Assembly: GCA_903900705.1 (NCBI GenBank)
Contig: CAIUOG010000055.1
Location: 1 to 64,000, forward strand
DNA from: an uncultured Acidobacteriia bacterium
GTDB lineage: Bacteria > Acidobacteriota > Terriglobia > Bryobacterales > Bryobacteraceae
Reading direction: 5' to 3'
Length of the DNA stretch: 64,000 bases
The notes under the pieces were generated by a model. The model was given only the letters and a program-made list of their open reading frames with translations, was not told where the DNA came from and did no database searches. Below are positions 24,570 to 41,725 of the stretch, piece by piece. Each line of letters starts with the position of its first letter. The first letter of the stretch is position 1. A program made the position numbers and the translations under genes.

Positions 24570-25541
24570 CTACCGGTTTCCCTTCCCAAATACCAGTACC
24601 CTCCCGTGCAGCGCGTCCGCCAGATAAACCCGGCCCTTCGCATCCACATGAATGGCATCCACCCGCTGCATCTGGTCAAGGCCGTCGCCTCTCTGTCCAA
24701 ATGATGTCACCGGGTGGCCCGCTTCGTCGTAAATCCGGACCACCATATGACCGGCATCCACCACCGCACAGCCGGACAACCGTTCATCGCACACAAATGG
24801 ACCCGGCACGCGAATGTCGTCCCATCTCGTCTCGCCCCGCAGCTTTCCCGCCGGACTGAATTCCTCCACCAGATTGGGGAAGCTGCCCAGTACATCCACC
24901 TGATTGCGTATTACCGACAACCAGACCGGCTGGTGCATTTCCCGCGGCAAGTGGAAGAAGGCGGTCTGCTCCCCTTCCCGGTTGAGGGTCACGACGCATT
25001 GCTTTCCCGCGTCCAGCACGAACAACGCGCTGCCATCGGCGGACAGCGCCAGGGAGACCGGGGTTTCCAGCAGTCGCCCGGCGCGCCGCGGAATCAGTGT
25101 CCGGTCGAACTCACCGGTCTCGTCAAAGACATATACACCGCCCGTCGCCGCATCCGCCAGATAGATGCGCCCCACCGCGTCTGCGATCATTCCCGAAGGG
25201 GATTGCAACGTGGCCTCACCAACGCGCCGGATCTCGCGGTAGGTACCCGGTTCCGGATCGAAGACATGCACCGATCCGGTTCCGCTGTCAGAGATCCAGA
25301 CCCGACCCTGGCGATCTGTCACCACGGACTGCGGCGAGCCGATGCCCCACGGAAATTCTCCCCGCCCGAACGCCGTATTCGCCGCCTTGCGGTTCAGAAC
25401 CTTCGGCGGATGGATTCCGCCACGGGTCCCAAACGTATATAAATGGCGGTACTGTGTTTCGCCCCGCGATTCCCGTGCCTCACGCTCCTGGCCGGACGCG
25501 GCGAGCACCAGCAACATCAGGCCGAAAGGGACGGTGCGCAT
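24570..25541 (-). CDS. Exported NHL-repeat beta-propeller protein
   Basis: 323 residues: signal peptide (~1-17) and about six NHL blades ([68 protein letters not shown]). The domain is a scaffold or ligand-binding propeller and carries no catalytic motif. The ATG lies 3 bp after the stop of the 12-heme cytochrome gene, so it is the last gene of that operon. Function in electron transfer is inferred from context only. Confidence 0.85.
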
Positions 25542-25544
25542 GGG

Positions 25545-27341
25545 TTAGTAAGTTCGGGGATTGTGATTGTCGCCATGGCAGACCAGATAGCAGCCGCGGG
25601 TCGCTCCGGTGTTGAAATACCCGTAGTACGTCGTGGCACGGCTTACAACGCCGGTATCGAAATTGATCATGGCATGGTTGGCCGATGAGTTTCCGCCGAT
25701 GACGCCGTGCGGGTCGTGGCAGGTGGTGCATCCGTAACTGCGGTGATTGTCGTGGGGGCTGATGTTGGCGACAGTCGTGAGATTGTGGCACTTATTGCAC
25801 ATTGCCGACGCGGCATTGGAGTTTCCGGAGGAGCCCCCCAACGTCTCCTGATACAGCGTGAATTGCAGTAAATGCGGGAAAGTGGAGCCGTGCGGACCAT
25901 CGGGCCCGGTGCTGCTGATGGTGCGTGAGGCGTTGTTATTGTGGCAGTCGGTGCAGTAGATCAGGGATGTCTTCGTGAGGGGCCGGCTGGTGATATTCGC
26001 GCCATTGATATCAGTCACATACGGGCGCAGGGAGGAATTGCCGGTGTTCGCCACGCTGTTCCCCATGACGTTGTGCCCGATTGTGGAAGTGAATTTCAGC
26101 CGCAGGTTGTACTGGTCGGGAGGTGTCGGGGGCGGAGCGGTGTAGGTTGCCGGCAGAGGGCCTTCGAGATAACGTCCCGCCGTGCGTCCGTAAGAGCTGG
26201 TGGTAGGTTTGTTCGTGCTGTCCGCGTGGCACTTGAGACAAACCTGATACTCCTTCGTGGCCGGGACCTGGGAGCCCGTCGTGTCATATCCGCTGACGCC
26301 CGTCAGACTGAGCGGCAGCGCGGGTGGAAGCGGAAAGCCCGGCTGCGCCTGAGCCGCGTGATCGTTATGGCAGTCTTCGCACTCGGCGTGGCGCGTCGAG
26401 TTCACAGGCAGCGTCTCCGCCGCATCGTGTGCCCCGGTGACAGTCAAAGTGGGGTGCGAATATGTTTTACTGAACTCCGCCATCACATTGAGCGGCGCGG
26501 GCGAGACGTTCGCACCACTGTGGCAGGGGCTGCAATTCGCCTCTTCCTTCGCACGCAGATCCCGCGGTCCCGTGCCGTTCTGATGCGCCCCGTGACAGTT
26601 GGAACAGGCATTCGCGGCCACCGTGCCGTAAGCGCCAAATCCCGCAGTGGTGGGCACGGTGCTGGTCACGGTGGCGTGCGCTCCGCTGGTCCATCCGTTC
26701 AGAATATTGGGTTGCGGGCGAGTGGAATCATGGCATGCGGTACAGAGCGCGCCCGCGGCATTGGACCGGACCAGAAAATTCTTCGCCACGGCATCCTTGT
26801 TCTGCACATGAGGGTCGTGGCAGGTGGTGCATTCCACCTTTCCGCTGACCAGCAGCACGGTCGGATCCTTGCTCGCGGGACTGCTGCCGAAAAGTCCCGA
26901 GAATAGCTGACCGTTGTCCACGGGAGTCATGCTCACCGGGTGACTGGTTGCCAGATTGGCGCCGAAGACATCCCCCGGAGTCATGGAACCCGTTGTGGTG
27001 ATGGTCCCCTGCGCCACCGTCAGACCTACTGCAACTGTGCCGTCATGGCAGCTCAGACAGAGCTTTGAGGAACCGGCCGAAGGGGTCTGCGTGCCGGAGA
27101 CATAAGTGCTGCTCGTATAAGTAGTATAGGTCTGGACCGACAGTTTGTGATCCCACAGGGGAGTCACATTCGGCGTGATGTTGTGTGGAGCGTGGCAGAT
27201 AATACACGCGTCTATGGCCGCCGATTTCACCGGCCCTGTTCCGGCGGCAGTCAGGTCATGCTGACTCCCGATCACCGCGATCTTACTGCTCGCGCCGTAA
27301 GCACACACCGGGATCAGCAGCAGAGCCACACACAACCTCAT
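25545..27341 (-). CDS. Dodecaheme c-type cytochrome (secreted)
   Basis: 598 residues with signal peptide (~1-16). Heme motifs in order: CIICH, CLSCH, CTTCH, CTACH, CSNCH, CSPCH, CEDCH, CLKCH, CTDCH, CNKCH, CTTCH and a final CX3CH (CYLVCH), i.e. eleven standard plus one spaced variant. Ser/Thr/Gly-rich linkers are typical of exported outer-membrane or extracellular cytochromes. Its first ~205 residues repeat the layout of the tetraheme protein at 30258 (HDL, CHAPHN, LW, CLSCHDG, SHPV, CHDPH, NFLVRSN). Start has GGAGG 8 bp upstream and overlaps the NHL gene stop by 4 bp. Confidence 0.93.
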   Translation of the reverse strand: MRLCVALLLIPVCAYGASSKIAVIGSQHDLTAAGTGPVKSAAIDACIICHAPHNITPNVTPLWDHKLSVQTYTTYTSSTYVSGTQTPSAGSSKLCLSCHDGTVAVGLTVAQGTITTTGSMTPGDVFGANLATSHPVSMTPVDNGQLFSGLFGSSPASKDPTVLLVSGKVECTTCHDPHVQNKDAVAKNFLVRSNAAGALCTACHDSTRPQPNILNGWTSGAHATVTSTVPTTAGFGAYGTVAANACSNCHGAHQNGTGPRDLRAKEEANCSPCHSGANVSPAPLNVMAEFSKTYSHPTLTVTGAHDAAETLPVNSTRHAECEDCHNDHAAQAQPGFPLPPALPLSLTGVSGYDTTGSQVPATKEYQVCLKCHADSTNKPTTSSYGRTAGRYLEGPLPATYTAPPPTPPDQYNLRLKFTSTIGHNVMGNSVANTGNSSLRPYVTDINGANITSRPLTKTSLIYCTDCHNNNASRTISSTGPDGPHGSTFPHLLQFTLYQETLGGSSGNSNAASAMCNKCHNLTTVANISPHDNHRSYGCTTCHDPHGVIGGNSSANHAMINFDTGVVSRATTYYGYFNTGATRGCYLVCHGDNHNPRTY

Positions 27342-28315
27342 TCCGACTTCCTCCGGAAGTGAAATACCTGCACACGGCGGTTCAGCGAATCCGCCACATA
27401 CATCACATTACGGCTGTCGATGGAAATACCGGAAGGCAACTGAAACTGGCCCGCCTGATTTCCGGTCGAACCGAAATAGTACAGCAGGTGGCCCTGCTGG
27501 TCGAATACCTGAACGGTCTCAAACAATGCATCCACCACATAGAGGTTTCCTTCGCTGTCGACGGCGATCCCCTTGGGCCGGTTCAGCGTGCCCGACGTGT
27601 TCCCCGGCTCGCCGAACGCGCTGACAAACTCACCCTCAGTGGTCAGGGTCTGGACGCGGAAATTCATGGAATCGACCACATGGAGGCGACCGGCGGATAA
27701 CGTGAGAGACGTCGGAAAATTGAACTCTCCTTCCGCCCTGCCACGCTTTCCGATCACACGTACCAGCGCGCCATCGGTACGAAAAACCAGGACCTGATGG
27801 CGCAGCGTATCGGCCACATACAAACGCCGCGCCGCGCGATCGAGAGCCATGCCCGTAGGGCGTTGCAGAGCAGTCGGCCCGGTACCGCCGATAAACCGGA
27901 GGAACTTGCCCCTGGTATCGAACACCAGGATTTTCCGGCGCACGGAATCCGAAACGTAAATATCGTCGTTCGAATCGCACGCCACATCGATCGGTGACTC
28001 AAATGTACTGCCACGCGGACCTTTCAGAAACTGGTATTTCTGCTTCTCGAAGTCATAAACGTGGACCCCCTTCTGCCCAGGGTCCGCTACCATCAAGCGT
28101 CCTCTGCTGTCCTGCGCGACCCCATACGGTCTTGTAACCTCCGGACGGTCCGGCGGCCCCACAATCCACTCGAAGACCTTCGGCAGAAAACTACGTGGCC
28201 GGGTGAACTCCCGGACCGAGGGAATCGTGCGCCAATACTCGATGCCGGCATGCGTGGTGGCGCCCGGTAACGGCAGGCAGGCAAGGAACCACAGGATGGC
28301 GGCGCGGGTTTTCAT
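27338..28315 (-). CDS. Exported NHL-repeat beta-propeller protein
   Basis: 325 residues: signal peptide (~1-19) and six NHL blades such as GVAQDSRGRLMVADPGQKGVHVY, GMALDRAARRLYVADTLRHQVLVF and GIAVDSEGNLYVVDALFETVQVF. Both ends overlap its neighbours by 4 bp (beta-barrel upstream, 12-heme cytochrome downstream), so its product is made in step with them. Likely periplasmic or extracellular; may act as a scaffold of the cytochrome complex (inference). Confidence 0.87.
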   Translation of the reverse strand: MKTRAAILWFLACLPLPGATTHAGIEYWRTIPSVREFTRPRSFLPKVFEWIVGPPDRPEVTRPYGVAQDSRGRLMVADPGQKGVHVYDFEKQKYQFLKGPRGSTFESPIDVACDSNDDIYVSDSVRRKILVFDTRGKFLRFIGGTGPTALQRPTGMALDRAARRLYVADTLRHQVLVFRTDGALVRVIGKRGRAEGEFNFPTSLTLSAGRLHVVDSMNFRVQTLTTEGEFVSAFGEPGNTSGTLNRPKGIAVDSEGNLYVVDALFETVQVFDQQGHLLYYFGSTGNQAGQFQLPSGISIDSRNVMYVADSLNRRVQVFHFRRKSE

Positions 28316-30204
28316 AGAAGCTTCGCGTTCCTTGAAATTCGCAGATACACACGACCGCGACGTGTCTCGGGATAGGTAGTGAAGGTCGTGAAGATCTGGC
28401 TCGAATCGGTGAATCCCATGTCCATCTGAATGCGCCGAAAATGGTAGGTCAGGTGCATGTCCAGAATCTGGAAGTCATTATTAATCACGCCATCGAGATG
28501 TTGCAGGGAATGCGTCCACAGCAATGAAATCTCCAGCTTCCTGACGGGCGTCGCGTGCAGCGTAATTGCCAGAGCACGCAGGTCGCTCGGCACGGGCCGG
28601 AGCACCCCGGCCAGCACAGAGCCCACCGCAATGTCACCGTAAAGCTGACTGTACAGCGGCAGAGAACTCCCCAGATTACTGTTGAGCGTGGCCGACATCT
28701 GCAACAGCGGATGCTCGATACCGAAGCGCCCCGTATAGCCTTTGCTCAGAAACGCACTGCCGCCGCTTTCGAAATTTCCCTGCTGCCAGCCGCCACCGGC
28801 GCGCACGCCCAGGCGTCCAAACAGATGCTGTGAGATGCTGCCTTCCGCCGAAAAGCTTCGGTCCGTGACCGGCTGCATATTCTGAAGGCTCTCGCTGTTC
28901 CCGTGCACCGAACCATCAAACTGCGTTGCGCCCGCTTTGCCTGCCTGAAACGAGACGAGATAGTTATCTCCGGCGAGCCGCCCCGACTGGCCTGTGACAG
29001 AGCCGCTGCCCAGTTCCCGGGCATATTGCCCCGAGACGTTCAGCCACTCAAATCTCTTGCTGTAAGTAACTCCGGCCGAGGCAGATGTGTAACTCCCGTT
29101 CACGGCGCCATCGGCGGGCGGAGTAAACACGCTGCTATGGTCCGCGCGCCCGTAGAGGCTGAGCTCTTTCGTCACCTGAAACGAAGTGGTGCCATTGAAA
29201 TTGAGACTGCCGATAGAGCGTTCGAGCAGGGCGAGCGTGGACGTGTCAGGCAAGACAGTTCCGGGGCCACCTGTTCCGAGTCCGCCGACGACGGAATTCA
29301 GCAACTGCCCGGATACGTTCGACGAATAGCCGGCATGCAACGCCGTCTTCCAGCGCCTCCGCTGAAATAGCCGGATATTCCCGTTTGCATAACTCGTCGT
29401 CAGATTAATGGGCATTCCCAGCAACACATTTGCGGTGGACTGCCGCCCGCCATCGAGATAAACTTCGGAATCGGTCCATACCGTGCGACGCGCCGATCCC
29501 TGATTCTGGTAAAGACGCTGCTGTAGCGCCGAGGTATTAATGACTCCCGCTGAGGGCGCGAACAGATCCGATTTCTGAGTCTGAATGTGACTGAAGCCCT
29601 CAATATCCCAGCCGTGCCAGTAATACTTCATGTCGGAGTTGAAGTGGTTCACGTGTGACGCGTAATCAGGGAGTCCCGCAATGCCGGAGTTCGACCCGAC
29701 CGAGCCGATACCCCAGTCGATCGTGATCGCCGGAAGGTCATGATACTTCACATTCCACGTCAGGCCCAAATCACTGTTTCGTGTTGCCAGGCGATAGGCC
29801 GACACCTGTGACAGGCTTCCGAAGTAGACGTCGGAAACGCGCAGATTCGAATAACGGAAGGTAAGAGGCGAGAGTCTCCGGAGCGCGGTGATGCGCATGG
29901 AGATGCCGTTACCGCCCTGAAAGCCCGCCTCACTGGCCTGCGGGCCGTAAACGAATTCCGGCTGCAGAGTGAAATTCAGAAAGTCCGGACTCATGTAATA
30001 ACCGTTAACGTCCAGAGAGATGCTGGCCGGCACAAAGTTGACCTTCTGATTTACCTGGCCGCGGGTCCAAGTCTCATAGTAGCCTGACGAGAAAACGCCA
30101 GACACGGTAAGTGGCACCGTCTGCGCGATTATCGCCGACGGCGACAGCAGACAGGTCAGGGTCAATAGAATTCTTTTGTCGAAATCAGTCATCTTCAGGT
30201 CCAT
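28312..30204 (-). CDS. Outer-membrane beta-barrel protein, candidate porin of a porin-cytochrome conduit
   Basis: 630 residues. Signal peptide ends near residue 28 (SAIIAQ), then a long run of amphipathic beta-strands with aromatic girdles and Asn/Ser/Gly turns (about 26 strands expected), and a terminal strand RVYLRISRN near the end. No heme motif and no CxxC. Size resembles MtrB/PioB/OmbB porins, which hold a multiheme cytochrome across the outer membrane; homology to these could not be verified. It lies between the tetraheme cytochrome gene (53 bp upstream) and an NHL gene (4-bp overlap). A second ATG 12 bp in is an alternative start. Confidence 0.8.
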   Translation of the reverse strand: MDLKMTDFDKRILLTLTCLLSPSAIIAQTVPLTVSGVFSSGYYETWTRGQVNQKVNFVPASISLDVNGYYMSPDFLNFTLQPEFVYGPQASEAGFQGGNGISMRITALRRLSPLTFRYSNLRVSDVYFGSLSQVSAYRLATRNSDLGLTWNVKYHDLPAITIDWGIGSVGSNSGIAGLPDYASHVNHFNSDMKYYWHGWDIEGFSHIQTQKSDLFAPSAGVINTSALQQRLYQNQGSARRTVWTDSEVYLDGGRQSTANVLLGMPINLTTSYANGNIRLFQRRRWKTALHAGYSSNVSGQLLNSVVGGLGTGGPGTVLPDTSTLALLERSIGSLNFNGTTSFQVTKELSLYGRADHSSVFTPPADGAVNGSYTSASAGVTYSKRFEWLNVSGQYARELGSGSVTGQSGRLAGDNYLVSFQAGKAGATQFDGSVHGNSESLQNMQPVTDRSFSAEGSISQHLFGRLGVRAGGGWQQGNFESGGSAFLSKGYTGRFGIEHPLLQMSATLNSNLGSSLPLYSQLYGDIAVGSVLAGVLRPVPSDLRALAITLHATPVRKLEISLLWTHSLQHLDGVINNDFQILDMHLTYHFRRIQMDMGFTDSSQIFTTFTTYPETRRGRVYLRISRNAKLL

Positions 30205-30257
30205 CTGAGTTAAAGGCCCGGGTGGACGGCAAGTCAGCCGCCCACCCGATCATCGGC

Positions 30258-30911
30258 CTACAGGTGACAGGTGGTGCAGTGCGAGGCCGAATTCGCCTGG
30301 CGAAGGTAGTTTGTGTTGACGTCGTTGTGTGGATCGTGACAGGTCGCGCATTGCATCGTGTTGCTCGATCCATACAGGGGCAGCGTGGAGGAGACCGTGG
30401 CAACGGCCTGAAGCGAAGAATTCTTAGTCGGATCATACGGCAGGTTCACCGGATGATCGTTGGTCAGACCGAGTGATTCGAAGGCGCCGGTTCCAAACGA
30501 CGCACGGGAGCCTACCTGGTTCTTCGTCTGCATGGCAGGCGAGAAACTGGAGGTGACGCCATCGTGACAACTCAGACACAGCAGCGAGTACATACGAACA
30601 TCGGTCGATGTCGTCAGTGCGCTGCCGCCCAGTTCAACAGCTTTGTTCTGCATGGTATTCGAGTCATAAACCCCGAATGTGTTGGAAGATGCCGGAAAAC
30701 TGCGGGACCAAAGCAGGATGAGACCAGTGCCTTGCGTTCCACCGTTGGCGGAGGAGCCATTGTGCGGCGCGTGGCAGGACTTGCAACCATTACCGCCGAT
30801 ATCGTGAGTCGACCCGGCAAGGCCGGATTTGGGCAGGTTCGGCGCAGCGCCCGGCATGGAAATCGTTCCCATCCCCAAGAGGATGGCAAGTGTGAAATAC
30901 CTGTACTTCAT
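30258..30911 (-). CDS. Tetraheme c-type cytochrome, OmcE-like layout
   Basis: 217 residues from the ATG at 30909-30911, chosen because GAAGGAGAG lies 8 bp before it and the signal peptide (MKYRYFTLAILLGMGTISM) starts there; a longer reading has no such site. Four CXXCH motifs: CKSCH, CLSCH, CATCH and the terminal CTTCH. The mature part has nine histidines: four proximal plus STHD, CHAPH, NDHP, CHDPH and SHCTTCH, enough for bis-His ligation of all four hemes. Short, Ser/Thr/Gly-rich and without a membrane anchor. The layout resembles Geobacter OmcE-type filament cytochromes (recollection, not a search). Confidence 0.9.
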   Translation of the reverse strand: MKYRYFTLAILLGMGTISMPGAAPNLPKSGLAGSTHDIGGNGCKSCHAPHNGSSANGGTQGTGLILLWSRSFPASSNTFGVYDSNTMQNKAVELGGSALTTSTDVRMYSLLCLSCHDGVTSSFSPAMQTKNQVGSRASFGTGAFESLGLTNDHPVNLPYDPTKNSSLQAVATVSSTLPLYGSSNTMQCATCHDPHNDVNTNYLRQANSASHCTTCHL

Positions 30912-31004: not shown

Positions 31005-32108
31005 TTACTTTGCGGCCTTCACCTCCTTTTTATCCGCTGCTTCCGGCTGTGGCAGGTACTGGAATACCTGAATCCGCCCATGGAACATCTCGGTTGTATA
31101 GATGCGGTCCTGTGGATCAATCCACAGTCCTGTCACCAGCGCGAATTCGCCGCGCCCCGCGCCAAGTGTTCCCACCGCAAGCAAAGGCTGACCTTCGCGG
31201 GAAAGGATCTGAAAGTTATTGAATTCCGCATCCGCCACGTAGACGTGCCCCTGAGAATCGACCGCGATGCCCTTCGGTCGGATGAACTCGCCGGGCCGAT
31301 CCCCCTGCGCGCCAAAAGACCGCAGAAACCGACCGTTGGTGTCCAGAACCTGCACTCTGTAATTGCCGGTATCGGCAACGTAGACGTTGCCCTCGTGGTC
31401 TACCGCTACGTTCGTTGGCCCGGTGAAACGGCCCTTTTCTTTCTTTCCGGGAGTACTGGGACCACCCATTTCGCCTAATAACTCCATGGTCTTCGTATCG
31501 AAGACAACAATCTTGTTTTGCTTTGCATCCGCCACATAAAGTTTGTTGCGGCTCTTATCGATGGCAATGCCGCCGGGACGACCCAGAGCGCTGGTCCCGA
31601 AGTGGGCAATCGGCTGCCCGTTCGAAGCGAAACAAACAATGGTATGAAGGTCGGCGTCAGAGACAAACAGGCGGTCTGTGCTGTCGAGAGCGACTCCGGC
31701 TGGTAAAGACAGAGGGGCCCTACTGCTCGACTCGCGCGTCTCTACGATTCGGTTTACCGGATCGATCACATAGACCAGCTTCAGTTCCGTGTCGGCGGTA
31801 TAGATGCGCCCCCGGGAATCCGTCGCGATGCCGTAAGGTTTCCGCAGTTCCTGCTTCTCATCCGCCGTCTTGGTGCCGGTCACCTTATCGAGCCAGCTGT
31901 TTTTCTTAGCTTCCGGTTTTTTGACTTTTGCCATGTCGGTATATTCCGCGAGCCAGCGAACGCGCGGAGGATCGGGCGGCAGGGGCCAGGTAAGATCGGC
32001 GGTGGCGGTGCCCGGGATGACCGGACCTTTTTTGTTGTCGGCCGCGCGCAGGAGCAGGCAAAGGACGCCAAGCATGATCAGGGCATGCAGGCAGGAACTG
32101 AATTTCAT
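31005..32108 (-). CDS. Exported NHL-repeat beta-propeller protein
   Basis: 367 residues. Signal peptide (~1-22), a Pro-rich stretch (LTWPLPPDPPRVRWLAEYTD) that recurs in NHL proteins associated with multiheme cytochromes in other phyla, then six NHL blades (GIATDSRGRIYTADTELKLVYVID, GIAIDKSRNKLYVADAKQNKIVVFD, GIAVDSQGHVYVADAEFNNFQIL) and a Lys-rich C-terminus. Its ATG overlaps the stop of the heptaheme gene by 4 bp. Confidence 0.88.
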   Translation of the reverse strand: MKFSSCLHALIMLGVLCLLLRAADNKKGPVIPGTATADLTWPLPPDPPRVRWLAEYTDMAKVKKPEAKKNSWLDKVTGTKTADEKQELRKPYGIATDSRGRIYTADTELKLVYVIDPVNRIVETRESSSRAPLSLPAGVALDSTDRLFVSDADLHTIVCFASNGQPIAHFGTSALGRPGGIAIDKSRNKLYVADAKQNKIVVFDTKTMELLGEMGGPSTPGKKEKGRFTGPTNVAVDHEGNVYVADTGNYRVQVLDTNGRFLRSFGAQGDRPGEFIRPKGIAVDSQGHVYVADAEFNNFQILSREGQPLLAVGTLGAGRGEFALVTGLWIDPQDRIYTTEMFHGRIQVFQYLPQPEAADKKEVKAAK

Positions 32109-32752
32109 TTATGACACCTCAGACAAAGGGATTCGAAAGTTTCGGTCTCTGTGACCAGTAACTGGCTGCTCTTATCGGTGCTGTGCGGGTCATGGCAGGT
32201 CAGGCAGCTGATCGCCGGCCATTCCTTGTCTTCCTTTCGGGACACGGGATGATTGGAAACGGGATGACCGCGCCCTTCGCTAAGGGCGATCGTCTTTGCG
32301 GACCCGCTTGCGCCCGCCAGGTGACATCCCAGACACAGCTTGTTTGGCTCAGCGGTTTTCAGCATGAGCCCCCCACTGGCGTGGGGATCGTGGCAGAATG
32401 TGCAATCCTGGGCGACCGGGGCATGCACAAATTCCTTCGCAGCCTTCCCGGCATGGCAGGCCGAACACAACTCCGTCACTTTGGCCGCAAGGTAGAACTC
32501 CCCGGGCTTGGGCTTTGGATTCTCGCCATGCGTCACGTGGCAGGCGTCACATCCGCCCCCCATAGCCGGATGGAGATTCTTCGCAGACGTGGCGGGTCGC
32601 AGCAGTGTGTGGCATCCCAGACAGGCCTCATCCGTGCCGATGTTGCCCGTCGCGGCGCCCGCGGCAGCCAGCAAGAGGCTAACCAGCGAGAACAGACGGC
32701 ATATCACGAACGGCGATATCGGCATAGAACGGGAAGCGCGCCTTCCTGGCAT
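32105..32752 (-). CDS. Heptaheme c-type cytochrome
   Basis: 215 residues with seven CXXCH motifs (CLGCH, CDACH, CSACH, CTFCH, CLGCH, CLTCH, CLRCH) and several CHDPH segments of the doubled-CXXCH family. The start at 32752 has AAGGA seven bases upstream; an internal ATG (32723-32725) lacks a ribosome site but begins the signal-peptide core (LFSLVSLLLAAAGAATG). The protein is probably periplasmic. It is the first gene of the minus-strand unit and lies next to a divergent promoter region. Confidence 0.9.
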   Translation of the reverse strand: MPGRRASRSMPISPFVICRLFSLVSLLLAAAGAATGNIGTDEACLGCHTLLRPATSAKNLHPAMGGGCDACHVTHGENPKPKPGEFYLAAKVTELCSACHAGKAAKEFVHAPVAQDCTFCHDPHASGGLMLKTAEPNKLCLGCHLAGASGSAKTIALSEGRGHPVSNHPVSRKEDKEWPAISCLTCHDPHSTDKSSQLLVTETETFESLCLRCHK

Positions 32753-32892
32753 CGCTAAGTCCTTAAGTGTTTCGGCGCAGCCCTGGAAATATATCCAGCG
32801 TCACAAAAAGTGGTAAAGAAATTTTTCAGTGAGCTTATATTTTTTGTTCTCCCTCAGCACTCTTGCTTAGTGTGTGGGAAGGTTGGGAGTCA
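32753..32892. promoter_or_regulatory. AT-rich divergent promoter region of the cytochrome cluster
   Basis: 140 bp between the heptaheme gene (minus) and the 23-heme gene (plus). The region 32805-32850 is strikingly AT-rich against its surroundings and contains TTATAT (32835-32840) as a possible -10 for the plus strand and a short hairpin CTGGA/TCCAG near 32793-32808. No FNR-type TTGAT-N4-ATCAA or obvious sigma-54 box was seen. Confidence 0.4.
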
Positions 32893-34827
32893 ATGCGGAG
32901 ACCTGCCGGAATTCGCCTGGCACCAGGCATTCTCCTCATAGTGGCGGCGAGTCTTCAGGCTCAGATTTCACCGGGTCCGCTGTCCCTCGCCCATGCTTCA
33001 CTCGAAGGCGTCACGAAGTGCGCCAACTGTCACGACTTCGGCGCGGGAACCAAGCGATTTCGCTGTCTGGAATGTCATTTGGAAATCAAACAAAGGCTCG
33101 ACACCCACACCGGGTTTCACACGCGCGCCGTCAAACCCCTTCCCGGCGAGGCCGACTGCGCACGTTGTCACATGGAGCATAACGGACAGTCATTCGCCCT
33201 GACCCGGTTGGATCGGCGACACTTCGATCACGTCGCGCAGACCGGCTTTGCGCTCGAAGGAAAGCACCTCGGGCAGAAGTGCGAGTCCTGTCACAACGCA
33301 AAGAACCTTCCCTCGGAAGCTCGCTCCGTTATTAAGGTGAAAGATCCGGCGCGCAGCTTTCTGGGCCTGAGGCGCGACTGCGCAGGTTGCCATAAGGACA
33401 TACACGCCGGCCAGTTGGGAGCCGCCTGCTCCAACTGCCACAATCAGGACTCCTGGTCGCAGGCGCCGGGCTTCAATCACGCCCGCACGCCGTTCCAACT
33501 CACCGGACTGCATCAGTCTGTCGCCTGCGCAAAGTGCCACCTGCCGCAGCGGCAGGCTTCGGCGGAAAAGCAACTGCTTTTCAAGGGGCTATCCTTTTCG
33601 GGTTGCCAATCCTGCCACAACGATCCCCACCGCGGCGGCTTCAAAGACGCGAAAGTACGTGGCGGTTGCGAGACCTGTCACACTACCGCGGGCTGGAAGA
33701 GCAACCGCCCCGCGTCCGGCTTCGACCACGCGAATACGAAGTTTCCGCTAACCGGGGCTCACGCGGCGAAGGCGTGTGCGCAGTGTCATAAAGACAGCGA
33801 TTTCCACCGCCCGATTCCGCACGACAAGTGCGGCGACTGCCATCAGGATGTTCACAGCGGCCAGTTCACCGCCCGGCCCCAGGGCTCCGATTGCGCCTCG
33901 TGCCACAACGACATATCTTTCAAACCGCCTCTGTTTAACCGCGAAACCCACCGCACCGCCGCTTTTCCGCTCACCGCCATGCATGAGCGAGTCGCCTGCG
34001 CCGCCTGTCACAAAGCCGAAGGAAAGGCGACCGTCTGGGAGACCCGACTGTTGCAATGCGCCGGTTGTCACCAGGATGTTCACGCGGGCCAGTTCGAGGC
34101 GGCGCCCTGGACCAACCAGTGTTCTCTCTGCCACAACCAGTCCGGCTTCGACCGTAACTCTTTCTCGGTTGAACGTCACGCTATGACCAGGTTCGCACTC
34201 AAGGGCCGTCATGAAAAAGTCTCTTGTGAATCCTGTCACAAAGTACTCAATCCCGCTCCCGGCTTCCTCGCGAAAGTGAGTACGCCCGCCCGGCAATTCC
34301 GGTTCCCCTCCCGCGCCTGCAATACCTGCCACGCCGATCCGCATCGGCAGGGGCAAAAAGTCGCAGCCTGTGAAAATTGCCACACGGAGGCCTCGTGGAC
34401 TTCGTCTTTGCCTTTCGATCACAAGACGACGCGTTTTCCGCTTACGGGACGACATGTCCGCGTCAATTGCAACCAGTGTCATAACCCGGTCAGCCCTGGC
34501 GGCAGCGCCATTGCAAAGCTGGCGCCGGCGTTTTCTTCCACGCCAACGCTCTGTTCCGGCTGCCACAAGGACCCCCACGGAGGCCAGTTCCGCAAGGGCC
34601 AGGGGCGCCCGGATGCGCCCGAAGAGGAATGTTCCAATTGCCACACCACCTCCGGATGGGGCGGGGCCGATTTTGACCATGAAAAAACCCGCTATCCGCT
34701 CGACCGGGCACATATGAACGTTCCCTGCGCAAAGTGCCACAAGAATGCTCTCGGCGCGGAACGGGATTCCTCCGCCCGCATTCGGATGTTCCGGGGAACG
34801 GCCATGGAGTGCGTCTCATGCCACTGA
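32893..34827 (+). CDS. 23-heme c-type cytochrome built from triheme repeats
   Basis: 644 residues; the ATG at 32893 precedes a signal peptide (RLAPGILLIVAASLQAQ), and a TTG ten codons upstream has no signal advantage. It carries 23 CXXCH motifs, the last one at the extreme C-terminus (CVSCH then stop). After four N-terminal hemes, hemes 5-22 fall into six consecutive triheme units of about 75-87 residues, each CxxCHxDxHxGQF ... CxNCH ... FxHxxTxFPLTGxH ... CxxCH. No membrane anchor other than the signal; likely a long periplasmic wire. Followed with a 10-bp overlap by a membrane protein gene. Confidence 0.95.
   Translation: MRRPAGIRLAPGILLIVAASLQAQISPGPLSLAHASLEGVTKCANCHDFGAGTKRFRCLECHLEIKQRLDTHTGFHTRAVKPLPGEADCARCHMEHNGQSFALTRLDRRHFDHVAQTGFALEGKHLGQKCESCHNAKNLPSEARSVIKVKDPARSFLGLRRDCAGCHKDIHAGQLGAACSNCHNQDSWSQAPGFNHARTPFQLTGLHQSVACAKCHLPQRQASAEKQLLFKGLSFSGCQSCHNDPHRGGFKDAKVRGGCETCHTTAGWKSNRPASGFDHANTKFPLTGAHAAKACAQCHKDSDFHRPIPHDKCGDCHQDVHSGQFTARPQGSDCASCHNDISFKPPLFNRETHRTAAFPLTAMHERVACAACHKAEGKATVWETRLLQCAGCHQDVHAGQFEAAPWTNQCSLCHNQSGFDRNSFSVERHAMTRFALKGRHEKVSCESCHKVLNPAPGFLAKVSTPARQFRFPSRACNTCHADPHRQGQKVAACENCHTEASWTSSLPFDHKTTRFPLTGRHVRVNCNQCHNPVSPGGSAIAKLAPAFSSTPTLCSGCHKDPHGGQFRKGQGRPDAPEEECSNCHTTSGWGGADFDHEKTRYPLDRAHMNVPCAKCHKNALGAERDSSARIRMFRGTAMECVSCH
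33379..34740 (+). repeat. Six tandem triheme repeat units within the 23-heme gene
   Basis: The conserved HxGQF/HxGGF segment after the first heme of each unit falls at codons 33403, 33628, 33853, 34081, 34342 and 34576, giving spacings of 75, 75, 76, 87 and 78 residues. Each unit holds three CXXCH motifs and one FxLTGxH segment. The repeats are diverged at DNA level, so they are old internal duplications rather than a recent array. Confidence 0.9.
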
Positions 34828-35768
34828 TACAGGAACGTCCCGTCACCCCGGCGTCGCGTCCGGGAAAAGTCCGGTCAGATACGCGACAGCCAGTTACCCT
34901 GCTAGTCGCGGTTGCTCTGGCGGTGATTCTGGTCGCCGCACTGGTCGTCACCGGCTTTCCCTACTACACGCTGCCGCCCGAGGAAAGGCCATTGTCACCG
35001 CTCCATGCGCTACTGCGCTCCAGCGGAATCATCGGCCTGAAATTGGGTATCCTCGGCGTTCTGCTGTTTGGCGTCCTGTTCCTTTATCCGCTGCGGAAGC
35101 GCTGGAAATGGCTGGCCGGAATCGGCAACACCCGCCGGTGGCTGAACGCTCATGTCTTTGTCGGAATCACCGCGCCCATCGTCATCACGTTCCATGCCGC
35201 ATTTAAGTCGCACGGGCTTGCCGGCGTTGCGTACTGGATCATGGTCATCGTGGCCTGCAGCGGCTTCGTGGGCCGCTATCTCTATGCGAAAATTCCCCGC
35301 CGCCTCAACGCGGTGAAACTCGACGCCGCTGAACTTGAAGCAGTGACAGCCACTCTCACTTCCCAGGTCGGCGCACAGGGCCTTTTCAGCGCCGCTGACT
35401 TCCTCCCGCTTCTCAATATCCCTTCGGCCGAGGAAATCCGTTCCCTGAACCTCCTCCATGCCTGGTGGATCATGCTACGTCTCGATGTCGCCCGTCCGTT
35501 CCAGGTGGGCCGCCTTCGCCGTCGCGTCCTCGCCGGTTCCCGCAAGTGGACCACCCTCGGCGGACTGCTTTCCTCCCATGACCAAACCGTGGAATCCATC
35601 GTCAGCAACGTCCGCCGGCTGGCCGGGCTCAGAACCGCCACCGCTTTTCTGCACAAAACCGAGCGCGTCTTCCACCTTTGGCACGTCATCCATCGGCCCT
35701 TCAGCCTGTCTTTTGTCGTGCTGGTGGTGATTCACGTGTGCGTCGCGTTATCCGTAGGAGTTCGCTGA
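34818..35768 (+). CDS. Integral membrane diheme cytochrome b-like protein
   Basis: 316 residues from the ATG at 34818-34820 (overlapping the upstream gene by 10 bp); a longer upstream reading would lie inside the cytochrome gene. Helices at ~27-48, 68-90, 111-130, 139-153 and 292-313. Two helices each carry a H-x13-H pair (H112/H126 and H292/H306), the pattern of transmembrane diheme ferric reductase/NOX-type proteins; no flavin domain is attached, but the next gene supplies a flavoprotein. Likely passes electrons from the cytoplasm or quinone pool to the 23-heme cytochrome (inference). Confidence 0.8.
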   Translation: MPLIQERPVTPASRPGKVRSDTRQPVTLLVAVALAVILVAALVVTGFPYYTLPPEERPLSPLHALLRSSGIIGLKLGILGVLLFGVLFLYPLRKRWKWLAGIGNTRRWLNAHVFVGITAPIVITFHAAFKSHGLAGVAYWIMVIVACSGFVGRYLYAKIPRRLNAVKLDAAELEAVTATLTSQVGAQGLFSAADFLPLLNIPSAEEIRSLNLLHAWWIMLRLDVARPFQVGRLRRRVLAGSRKWTTLGGLLSSHDQTVESIVSNVRRLAGLRTATAFLHKTERVFHLWHVIHRPFSLSFVVLVVIHVCVALSVGVR

Positions 35769-35775
35769 AGCCGCC

Positions 35776-37110
35776 ATGCCGGATACCTGGGGCTTCTACG
35801 CCTTCTACTCCGTAATTCTGCTGATCCCGATGGTCTGGTACATCCGCCGGCAGTTGCATCGCGAGAAACAGGTCCGCGAGGCCGCGGCCAAAGGCCAGGT
35901 GTTTACCGAAGCGCCGCTTGGGTTTCATCCGCAGATTGACGTCTCCCATTGCATCGGCTGCCAGGGCTGCACCTCCGTTTGTCCGGAAGGGCAGGTGCTC
36001 GGCATGGTGGGCGGAAAGGCAGCCGTGGTCAGGCCGTGGCGTTGTATCGGGCACAGCCTCTGTTCGGAAGCCTGCCCGGTGGGGGCCATCAGGATGGTGC
36101 GCGCTGCGCCCGGAATCAATGCCCGGCTACCCTTTCTCACCGAGGAGTTCGAAACTTCTGTTCCCAACCTTTACATCGCCGGCGAACTCGGAGGTCTGGC
36201 CCTGATCCGGAATGCCGTGCAACAGGGCGCCGAATGCATTGATGTCATTGCCGCCCGGCTCGCCGCCGCGCCCGACCGCGGCGCCGCGGCGATTACAGAC
36301 GTGATTATCGCCGGCGCCGGACCCGCCGGCATCAGCGCCGGCCTTCGAGCTCTTGAACTCGGACTGAGCTTCCTCGTCCTGGAACGCGATGAGGTGGGCG
36401 GGACGATCACCAAATATCCCCGCCAGAAGCTGGTCATGACGACAACGTTCAGCTTCCCGCTCTACCCACCGGAAAAGAAACGGCAGTTATCCAAGGAATA
36501 TATCGTCGATTTCTTCCGGACCGTGACAGCACGACCCGATTTCTCCATTCGCGCTCACGAAGAAGTGAAGAATATCCACGCCAACCCGGACGGTACGCTC
36601 ACCGTATCCACAGGCACTTCCCACTACCAGTGCCGCGCCGTGATTCTCGCCATGGGCCGCGCCGGTTCACCCAACAAGCTGGGAATCCCGGGCGAGGAAC
36701 TCGCCAAGGTGATGTACCGGCTGATTGAGGCGGATCACTATACGAACCGGAGAATTCTGGTCGTCGGCGGTGGCGACAGCGCGGTGGAGGCGGCCATGGG
36801 CCTCGCCATGCAACCGGGCAACAAGGTCACCCTCTCCTACAGGCGCAGTGAGTTCGCCCGTATCAAAGAGCGGAATGCGCAGAGGCTCGAAAGTGAGATT
36901 CGTGCGCGCCGAATTGAAGTTCTCTTCAATTCAGCACCGGTCGCGATCACCCAGGACACCGTCTCAATTCAAACGCCGGAAGGTATCCTTGAACTACCCA
37001 ACGACTACGTCTGGGTCTTCGCCGGCGGCGCGGCACCGGACGACTTCCTGAAGAAGATCGGCATCCACTACGGCCCCCGGGATCTGACGCGGGAAACCGT
37101 GCTCAGCTAA
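35776..37110 (+). CDS. Membrane-tethered ferredoxin/FAD-NAD(P) oxidoreductase fusion
   Basis: 444 residues: an N-terminal membrane helix (~8-22), an Fe-S domain with one canonical motif C59-x2-C62-x2-C65-x3-C69-P and a second C90-x2-H93-x2-C96-x3-C100-P in which His replaces one Cys, then a thioredoxin-reductase-like flavoprotein with FAD (IIAGAGPAGISAG, ~179-191) and NAD(P) (LVVGGGDSAVEAAMG, ~330-344) Rossmann motifs. The redox-active CxxC of true thioredoxin reductase is absent. Starts 7 bp after the b-type membrane protein and is probably the cytoplasmic electron input module (inference). Confidence 0.88.
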   Translation: MPDTWGFYAFYSVILLIPMVWYIRRQLHREKQVREAAAKGQVFTEAPLGFHPQIDVSHCIGCQGCTSVCPEGQVLGMVGGKAAVVRPWRCIGHSLCSEACPVGAIRMVRAAPGINARLPFLTEEFETSVPNLYIAGELGGLALIRNAVQQGAECIDVIAARLAAAPDRGAAAITDVIIAGAGPAGISAGLRALELGLSFLVLERDEVGGTITKYPRQKLVMTTTFSFPLYPPEKKRQLSKEYIVDFFRTVTARPDFSIRAHEEVKNIHANPDGTLTVSTGTSHYQCRAVILAMGRAGSPNKLGIPGEELAKVMYRLIEADHYTNRRILVVGGGDSAVEAAMGLAMQPGNKVTLSYRRSEFARIKERNAQRLESEIRARRIEVLFNSAPVAITQDTVSIQTPEGILELPNDYVWVFAGGAAPDDFLKKIGIHYGPRDLTRETVLS

Positions 37111-39996: not shown

Positions 39997-40527
39997 TCAG
40001 CGTTTCGCCTTGATGTCCGGACGTGAGTCCGGCACAAAACCGTCGCGATTCGGCATCACCACCTTCGGCAGCGTCTGCGCGTTCATCTCTTCATTGCGCT
40101 GCACGATGCCGTTCAGGAACAGTATGTAGGCCGTCACGGCATACACATCGTTGGGCGGCAGAATATGGGGCGTGTTGAACGGCATGGCGCGGTTGATGTG
40201 ATCGAAGACCGTCGTCGCGTAGGGCCAGTAGCTGCCCACCGTCTTCTTTGGCTTAGCCGTCGCGAGGCTTCCGATGCCGCCCACCAGCGCGGGATAGGCG
40301 CCGGGCCGCCCCTGTCCGCCCTCGTTGTGACAAACCACGCACCGGCTTTTGAAGACCACCTCGCCCTGAACAGCAGTTCCCTTCCCCGCCGGAAGGCCCG
40401 TTCCATCCGGCAAGATGGTGATGTCCATGGCGCGAACCTCTTCGGGCGTTGCCGGACGCCCCAGGCCATGCGGCTGCGCATTCAGCAGAGTGGCCAACGC
40501 GAGGCAGCTAAGCAGGAATCGAGACAT
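39997..40527 (-). CDS. Exported monoheme cytochrome c, sulfite dehydrogenase subunit (SorB/SoxD-like)
   Basis: 176 residues: signal peptide (~1-17) and one CXXCH (RCVVCH) around residue 62, with a downstream Met in AMPFNTPHILPPNDV typical of class I c-type subunits of sulfite dehydrogenase. Overlaps the end of the molybdoenzyme gene by 20 bp, so the two are made together. It accepts electrons from the Mo centre (family knowledge). Confidence 0.85.
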   Translation of the reverse strand: MSRFLLSCLALATLLNAQPHGLGRPATPEEVRAMDITILPDGTGLPAGKGTAVQGEVVFKSRCVVCHNEGGQGRPGAYPALVGGIGSLATAKPKKTVGSYWPYATTVFDHINRAMPFNTPHILPPNDVYAVTAYILFLNGIVQRNEEMNAQTLPKVVMPNRDGFVPDSRPDIKAKR

Positions 40528-41725
40528 GCGTCACCTCCCCGTTTGCGTGTACTTTCCATGGCTTGATGGCATTGTAGTGGTACCCGCTGTTCAGCCCGCG
40601 AACAGCCACCAGTTCCTCGCGCGTGGGTTGCAGATAGCCCGTCTCATCGGTGCAGCGGCACTGGATCACGGTTTCCTGCCCATCCCATATCCATGGCAGC
40701 CGAAAGGCCGTCAGCGCCTGCGAAAGCACCGGCTCCCGCAGCGTGGCGACCGCCCAGGTCTGCCCACCGTTCAGCGAAACCTCCACCTTTTCGATCTTCC
40801 CGCGCCCTGACCAGGCGAGACCCACAATCTCATGAAAGCCCGGCTTCAGCTTCTGGCCGCCCGAAGGCCGCGTGATGACGGAACGCGCCTCCATCACGAA
40901 GGTGAACATCTCAGCCTTGCCGTCCCGGCGCAGTTCGGTGTAATAGGCCGTCTCTTTGCTGGACATGGCGGGCTGATCAAGAACGTTCAGCCGTCGCAGC
41001 CACTTCACGTTCATGTTGCCTTCGAACCCCGGCAGAATTAGCCGCAGCGGATAGCCCTGCTCCGGCCGCAGAGCCTCGCCGTTCTGCCCATAGACGAGCA
41101 GCGCGTCCGACATCACTTTTTCCATCGGAATACTGCGCGCCAGCCGGCAGTTGTCCGCGCCTTCCGCGATCACCCACTTCGCCTCGGGTTTCACGCCCGA
41201 TTCCTGAAGCAGAACGCGCAGCGGCACACCGGTCCATTCCGCGCCGCTCACCAGGCCGTGGCTCTGCTGCACGTCGGGTGTCGGCACGCCGCGCTGGTCG
41301 CCGATGTTGTTCCCGCCGCATTCGAGAAAACAAATGCGGGAGACCGCCGGGAAGCGCCGGATATCGTCGATCGTGAAGACCAGCGGCGTCTCCACAAGGC
41401 CATGCACGAGGAGCGTGTGCGTGGCCGGATCGAGCGCGGGCACTCCCGCATGGTGCCGCTCGAAATGCAGGGACGAAGGCGTGATCCATCCCGGAAACAG
41501 GTCGCCCAAAGGCGTGCGGCTGGACCCGGTGCCGGAGCTGGCCGATAAATCCCGAATGGCGCGCAGGGGCTTTTCCAGTGGAGACCGCTCTCCGTACGGG
41601 CGCATGTTGGCCGCCGGAGAGGCCTCCGGCGCAGCCGCCGCCGGTGCGCCTCCCGGTTTCCCGCAGGAAGTCAGCGCCGCCGCCCCGGCGCTGGCCGCCA
41701 GAAACTGCCGCCTGCTTTTCGCCAT
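40508..41725 (-). CDS. Tat-exported sulfite oxidase-family molybdoenzyme (SoxC/SorA-like)
   Basis: 405 residues: Tat signal (KSRRQFLAAS) followed by a lipoprotein-like cysteine (LTSC, C21), the molybdopterin domain with the Mo-ligand C136 in FLECGGNN, and a C-terminal Mo-co dimerisation domain (KVEVSLNGGQTW, YLQPTREEL). Oxidises sulfite to sulfate in the periplasm and passes electrons to cytochrome c of the neighbouring gene. First gene of the pair. Confidence 0.88.
   Translation of the reverse strand: MAKSRRQFLAASAGAAALTSCGKPGGAPAAAAPEASPAANMRPYGERSPLEKPLRAIRDLSASSGTGSSRTPLGDLFPGWITPSSLHFERHHAGVPALDPATHTLLVHGLVETPLVFTIDDIRRFPAVSRICFLECGGNNIGDQRGVPTPDVQQSHGLVSGAEWTGVPLRVLLQESGVKPEAKWVIAEGADNCRLARSIPMEKVMSDALLVYGQNGEALRPEQGYPLRLILPGFEGNMNVKWLRRLNVLDQPAMSSKETAYYTELRRDGKAEMFTFVMEARSVITRPSGGQKLKPGFHEIVGLAWSGRGKIEKVEVSLNGGQTWAVATLREPVLSQALTAFRLPWIWDGQETVIQCRCTDETGYLQPTREELVAVRGLNSGYHYNAIKPWKVHANGEVTHVSIPA

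Follow-up and report, generated by a model that had tools for sequence, protein, structure and literature searches.

The window, by which we mean the whole 64,000-nucleotide stretch of DNA analysed here, from an uncultured Acidobacteriia bacterium, carries a minus-strand operon in which the genes for a 7-heme cytochrome, an NHL propeller (NHL1), a tetraheme cytochrome (TETRA), a large barrel, a second NHL propeller (NHL2), a 12-heme cytochrome (LONG) and a third NHL-repeat protein (NHL3) follow one another in this order, several of them with 4-nt overlaps (Table 1). TETRA starts at the ATG at 30911, and a ribosome-binding site (GGAGAG) lies just 5' of this codon. NHL1 has a counterpart at the same position in the sister locus L034 (59% identical), and NHL3 was not seen in the closest sister loci. 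On the plus strand, the 23-heme cytochrome has a homologue (42% identical) that directly adjoins LONG in the sister locus G133. A second, diverged tetraheme of G133 (L113:5464-6090), which is 37% identical to TETRA as compared with 54% for the copy in the cassette, also adjoins its 23-heme gene. The oxidoreductase 3' of the 23-heme gene of the window matches Pfam Pyr_redox_3 and Fer4, and the membrane protein matches no Pfam family above the cut-off; our guess is that the two may provide an inner-membrane electron entry. Further along the window, a TAT-like signal protein reading like a sulfite oxidase/SoxC-type molybdoenzyme is followed by a monoheme cytochrome c (39997-41725).

Table 1. Genes and features of the tetraheme locus, in window coordinates
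Feature	Position	Strand	Description
NHL3, third NHL-repeat protein	24570..25541	minus	323 aa; end of operon
LONG, 12-heme cytochrome	25545..27341	minus	598 aa; 11 CXXCH + 1 CXXXCH; OmcE-like head ~20-206, 8-heme tail
NHL beta-propeller 2 (NHL2)	27338..28315	minus	325 aa; 4-nt overlap with each neighbour
Large outer-membrane beta-barrel	28312..30204	minus	630 aa; ~25 strands, no plug domain, AlphaFold pLDDT 71.5
Strong hairpin	30220..30247	minus	10 nt past TETRA stop codon, before barrel gene
TETRA, OmcE-family tetraheme cytochrome	30258..30911	minus	217 aa; Sec signal, anchor-free; proposed filament subunit
NHL beta-propeller 1 (NHL1)	31005..32108	minus	367 aa; directly upstream of TETRA; Pfam NHL 7.4e-34
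7-heme doubled-CXXCH cytochrome	32105..32752	minus	215 aa; Pfam Paired_CXXCH_1 1.3e-25
23-heme cytochrome	32863..34827	plus	divergently transcribed
Membrane protein and Fe-S/flavin oxidoreductase	34734..37110	plus	343 aa and 444 aa; 3' of 23-heme gene

The mature part of TETRA, taken to start at residue 23 and preceded by a Sec signal, both judged by eye, comprises 195 residues, of which 34% are Ser, Thr or Gly. It contains four CXXCH motifs (CKSCH 43-47, CLSCH 112-116, CATCH 188-192 and CTTCH 212-216), and more than two such motifs arose in none of 100,000 shuffles of the mature sequence. Nine histidines are present (36, 47, 50, 116, 153, 192, 195, 211 and 216), and no lipobox-like signal is found among the 78 relatives of TETRA. 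These observations bear out the first-pass annotation, which had named no strand and had described an anchor-free, Ser/Thr/Gly-rich protein of about 200 mature residues with four heme motifs and nine histidines; the motifs that it listed (HD, CHAPH, LW, CLSCHDG, DHPV and CHDPH) all occur in TETRA. Its count of five non-proximal histidines stands as a count, but only four of the five are conserved in the family. H36, H153 and H195 are invariant in 59 of 59 sequences and H50 is present in 57 of 59, whereas H211, which adjoins the last CXXCH, is not conserved across the 59 sequences and is no feature of the family.

The likeness to OmcE, which the annotation had put forward without a computed match, is now a computed result. 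A single-sequence search of all PDB sequences with TETRA returned only two close relatives, 9YUQ (E 2e-12) and OmcE of Geobacter sulfurreducens (7TFS, E 5.5e-11), both matched over nearly the full length. A profile built from TETRA together with 58 of its homologues matches OmcE 7TFS at 1.4e-58 and 9YUQ at 6.6e-51, followed by MtrA at 3.7e-11 and OmcS at 2.9e-8. The suggestion that this likeness reflects the common look of multiheme cytochromes, that is, CXXCH bias and low complexity, draws on control comparisons, where alignments of generic multiheme proteins reach 6.8e-11 and 1.5e-8 against the family profile. We consider it very improbable, as the profile match to 7TFS surpasses that to the best-scoring solved protein from outside the family by some 47 orders of magnitude, and the non-heme residues LW, DG, HP and Y82 are also conserved in the TETRA family; the single-sequence and profile matches to OmcE in the PDB rule it out.

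Structural comparison points in the same direction. The AlphaFold monomer of TETRA, computed without heme, is of modest quality (pLDDT 63); with this limit, Foldseek against 350,542 chains places 7TFS first (E 4.8e-3, probability 0.97), and alignment of the same model to 7TFS with VIA-align gives Z 5.8 over 120 residues at TM 0.4, which is weak when taken alone. The structure search that the annotation had proposed as a check thus returned OmcE as the best match in the PDB, and a monomer fold unlike OmcE, which it had named as speaking against its reading, did not materialise. TETRA and OmcE are homologous over their whole length, carry four hemes in matching order, have no anchor and share the same eight conserved heme-ligand histidines, of which the four distal ones lie in HD, CHxPH, DHP and CHxxH. 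They differ in that identity is about 33% and the spacing from HD to the first CXXCH is very short in TETRA. On the strength of the sequence E-values, the profile gap to MtrA and OmcS, and 7TFS as the top structural match, TETRA belongs to the OmcE family. It is not a member of the OmcS family, given its four rather than six hemes and a profile match to OmcS that is weak (2.9e-8) and covers a short stretch; the hexaheme OmcS itself has no overall sequence likeness to OmcE. The closest solved single-sequence match, 9YUQ ('Putative multiheme cytochrome c'), has the same motifs as TETRA but falls in the tree beside a Desulfuromonadales sequence and apart from the window protein. A literature search returned no paper for 9YUQ, and from its 16 identical chains we can only guess that it forms a filament.

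Four hemes require four distal ligands. In published OmcE and OmcS filaments, one heme is ligated by a histidine of the neighbouring subunit (PMC9473688), and for OmcS, which has six hemes, the heme concerned is the last but one, heme 5 (PMC7096707). The only conserved histidines of TETRA outside the CXXCH motifs, H36, H50, H153 and H195, are the OmcE ligand set, which implies that the inter-subunit ligand is kept; no spare conserved ligand is left for closing all hemes within one subunit, the arrangement that the first-pass annotation had named as contrary to a filament. The donor in OmcS is, we presume, the second histidine of the first CHxxH motif, equivalent to H50 in TETRA. By analogy, H50 of TETRA would ligate heme 3 of a neighbouring subunit, in a manner shared with the OmcS nanowire, where a neighbouring subunit likewise supplies a heme ligand. 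TETRA would be exported and its subunits would then join head to tail, with H50 (in CHAPH, at heme 1) leaving its own subunit to serve heme 3 of the neighbour. Within the subunit, H195 would serve heme 1, H36 heme 2 and H153 heme 4, an assignment drawn from the OmcS/OmcE pattern rather than from coordinates. Head-to-tail ligation of this kind would produce one continuous heme chain. The H50 equivalent is missing, with Ser or Ala in its place, in two tetraheme relatives on very long branches (L095:19083-19637 and L111:5791-6366), and these two are candidates for non-polymerising or end-piece members.

The 60 nt immediately downstream of TETRA have a folding energy of -30 kcal/mol (z -3.3). Hairpins with z below -2 follow 48% of 77 tetraheme genes, the shares for NHL, LONG and barrel genes being 9%, 12% and 2%, and we propose that the hairpin lets TETRA be made in excess over the genes downstream of it. 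This observation bears indirectly on whether TETRA polymerises. It could be a non-polymerising OmcE-family carrier, at the surface or in the periplasm, that serves the adjoining porin-cytochrome complex. Geobacter has OmcS paralogues for which no filaments have been demonstrated (PMC12977616), and the operon holds conduit candidates of its own, the MtrA-like 7-heme protein and the barrel, so that electrons would not need a filament to leave the cell. Such a carrier is nonetheless an unlikely role for TETRA, as all four distal histidines including H50 are kept, leaving heme 3 of a monomer without a ligand if the OmcE pattern holds, the tetraheme-specific hairpin suggests excess production, and the protein has no anchor. 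Sequence cannot separate polymerising from non-polymerising members of the family, a caution that has been voiced by experts for OmcS (PMC12977616). Taken together, these features lead us to regard TETRA as probably a subunit of an OmcE-type extracellular cytochrome filament, and we infer that such filaments would conduct.

The neighbours of TETRA suggest how a filament might be supplied with electrons. The only solved relative of the 7-heme protein is MtrA (6r2q chain A, E 4.9e-10), and the barrel model aligns to MtrB (6r2q_B) with Z 17.4 and rmsd 5.5 over 447 residues, the most of any match, although TonB-dependent receptors tie with MtrB by Z. As MtrA is the only solved relative of the one protein and MtrB is among the structural matches of the other, the two likely form an MtrAB-like conduit. 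By comparison with MtrCAB-type conduits, the window protein has 7 hemes instead of 10, no MtrC homologue was seen, and the barrel does not separate MtrB from TonB-dependent receptors. From its model, we propose that the barrel may act as the porin of an electron conduit, as a secretion channel, or as both. The MtrA-like 7-heme protein would sit inside the barrel and feed electrons to the filament. Secreting the filament, assembling it or holding it would fall to the large barrel and the NHL proteins, which are often lipoproteins. At least 32 of 136 NHL propellers (L034-L112) start with a lipobox-like sequence, in many cases with a W/F-P-P-P motif behind it, and are likely outer-membrane lipoproteins.

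The gene set is widely conserved. A scan of species genomes yielded 531 relatives, from which 79 loci in about 20 phyla were kept, and gene maps show the set of MtrA-like 7-heme protein, NHL, tetraheme, barrel, NHL and 12-heme protein recurring in about 20 phyla. Many of the 79 loci are cut by contig ends; a tetraheme is present in 70, an NHL in 76 and LONG in 54, and in the 30 loci whose tetraheme is flanked by 7 kb or more on either side the figures are 30 for NHL, 26 for the barrel, 24 for LONG and 21 for all three, the tetraheme and LONG counts being biased upwards, since loci were picked by tetraheme or LONG head, and the NHL and barrel counts not. Exactly one barrel of the window's family is found by profile in 60 of the 79 loci, and an NHL gene adjoins the tetraheme in 54. 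The operon reading of the first-pass annotation, with an NHL gene, a barrel and longer cytochromes around the tetraheme, therefore extends across phyla, including the second NHL and the 12-heme protein. The order NHL1-tetraheme-barrel-NHL2-LONG is kept in the closest sister loci, L034, G133 and G060, and the last of these shares 90.6% DNA identity with L047 ('Terriglobia bacterium'); as G060 carries a same-class label, this puts the window in the class Terriglobia of the Acidobacteriota.

Closer to the window, the distribution is patchy. TETRA and its locus are absent from 18 genomes of the same genus, no tetraheme turned up in the other sampled members of the family, and one occurs in about 11% of sampled Acidobacteriota. 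The purine genes adjoining the locus are conserved in the genus, their neighbours, including the gene beside purQ, vary among congeners, and the GC content of the locus equals that of its flanks; both horizontal gain and repeated loss were considered as the cause of the absence in the 18 congeners. To the right of purQ in the same-genus sequences L127, L128 and L129 lies a gene with an outer-membrane-barrel-like C-terminus ending in Phe.

We compared the locus with those around known OmcE and OmcS relatives. The Geobacter comparison covers six loci of relatives, with OmcE at 53-65% identity, and does not include G. sulfurreducens itself. In these loci, an NHL gene lies upstream of OmcE and a gene of about 740-800 aa lies downstream, labelled barrel-like solely on account of its strand pattern and a C-terminal Phe and not matched by the barrel profile of the window's family; 8- and 10-heme cytochromes are also present, and some of the six carry a second NHL. 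NHL-tetraheme-barrel thus represents the core common to both locus types, with NHL2 and LONG as additions in the window type. LONG is absent from the Geobacter-like loci within the 10 kb examined, and may therefore not be needed for their OmcE filaments. The osc cluster, the companion of OmcS, has beta-propeller and channel-like proteins. A block of eight genes, it has been connected with maturation and secretion (PMC12977616). In Geoalkalibacter ferrihydriticus, the locus Ga0056053_02426-02431 brings together a homologue of OmcE, two NHL proteins and other multihemes; it was reported as the locus of a single genome, and the passage on it describes no 12-heme OmcE-headed protein (PMC12016550). 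In Geobacter-like genomes (L148-L153), OmcE relatives lie downstream of a conserved gene pair reading like ResB/CcsA cytochrome c maturation and adjoin glycosyltransferase-like genes, which fits the glycosylation of OmcE filaments.

The head of LONG is a complete OmcE-like domain that matches 9YUQ at E 5.6e-15 over residues 8-205 and is also found with the tetraheme as query. In a quick, midpoint-rooted tree, the LONG heads form one clade nested among the tetrahemes (SH-aLRT 97), and by sequence the head is of single origin. LONG is present in 28 of 396 Acidobacteriota genomes; we count 20 of these that also carry a short tetraheme, as compared with a base rate of about 11%. A reading of LONG as three fused OmcE modules was dropped, its tail not being specifically OmcE-like. 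In hhalign, LONG hemes 5-8 match the tetraheme in register at E 3.6e-15 and hemes 9-12 at 4.9e-6, but control doubled-CXXCH cytochromes score comparably to the former (6.8e-11 and 9.5e-15) and the latter match is weaker, so that only the head is claimed as OmcE-like.

The placement of CHxxH motifs suggests a possible function for LONG. Such motifs occur at hemes 1 and 3 in the 78 tetrahemes; in 52 LONG proteins they stand at hemes 1, 3, 5 and 7 and in most cases also at heme 11, even-numbered hemes almost never having one. If the CHxxH of heme n serves heme n-2, heme 5 of LONG does the job of the next subunit within one chain. Working from these sequences, we tentatively suggest that LONG is a terminal subunit, cap or anchor, of an OmcE-type filament, at an end (cell or tip) that we leave unspecified. 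The LONG head would give the histidine of its CHAPH to the last filament subunit, and the ligand of its own heme 3 would come from within LONG, from the CHxxH histidine of heme 5, so that the filament chain would end there and continue into the 8-heme tail. It is also conceivable, to a degree that we take seriously, that LONG is an independent extracellular cytochrome, or that it forms a filament of its own in which the head of one LONG would ligate heme 11 in the one that follows, much as in OmcS with its six hemes. The 19 non-proximal histidines of LONG, more than it needs, and the CHxxH at heme 11 would suit such a protein, as would a tail that is as similar to other doubled-CXXCH cytochromes as to the tetraheme and shows no special kinship with OmcE; by comparison, the proximity of LONG to a tetraheme in 24 of 30 well-flanked loci and the restriction of OmcE likeness to its head suit a protein that binds the tetraheme. 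Generalising the terminal-subunit reading, the 12-heme proteins might be dedicated nanowire end pieces, a filament subunit fused once to an 8-heme tail with the heme-5 CHxxH covalently replacing the next subunit, a proposal that we put forward with reserve. If this is true, these end pieces would give the wire its polarity and join it to an outer-membrane conduit or an acceptor in about 20 phyla.

In summary, TETRA joins the OmcE family as a new member, and its locus type adds an uncharacterised 12-heme partner with an OmcE head. LONG, with an OmcE-domain head and the ligand of the next subunit putatively built in, is a specific candidate for the piece that ends or anchors nanowires. As a genomic sign of nanowire capacity, the conserved locus serves better than cytochrome homology by itself, and it places this predicted capacity in the Acidobacteriota and in about 20 phyla.
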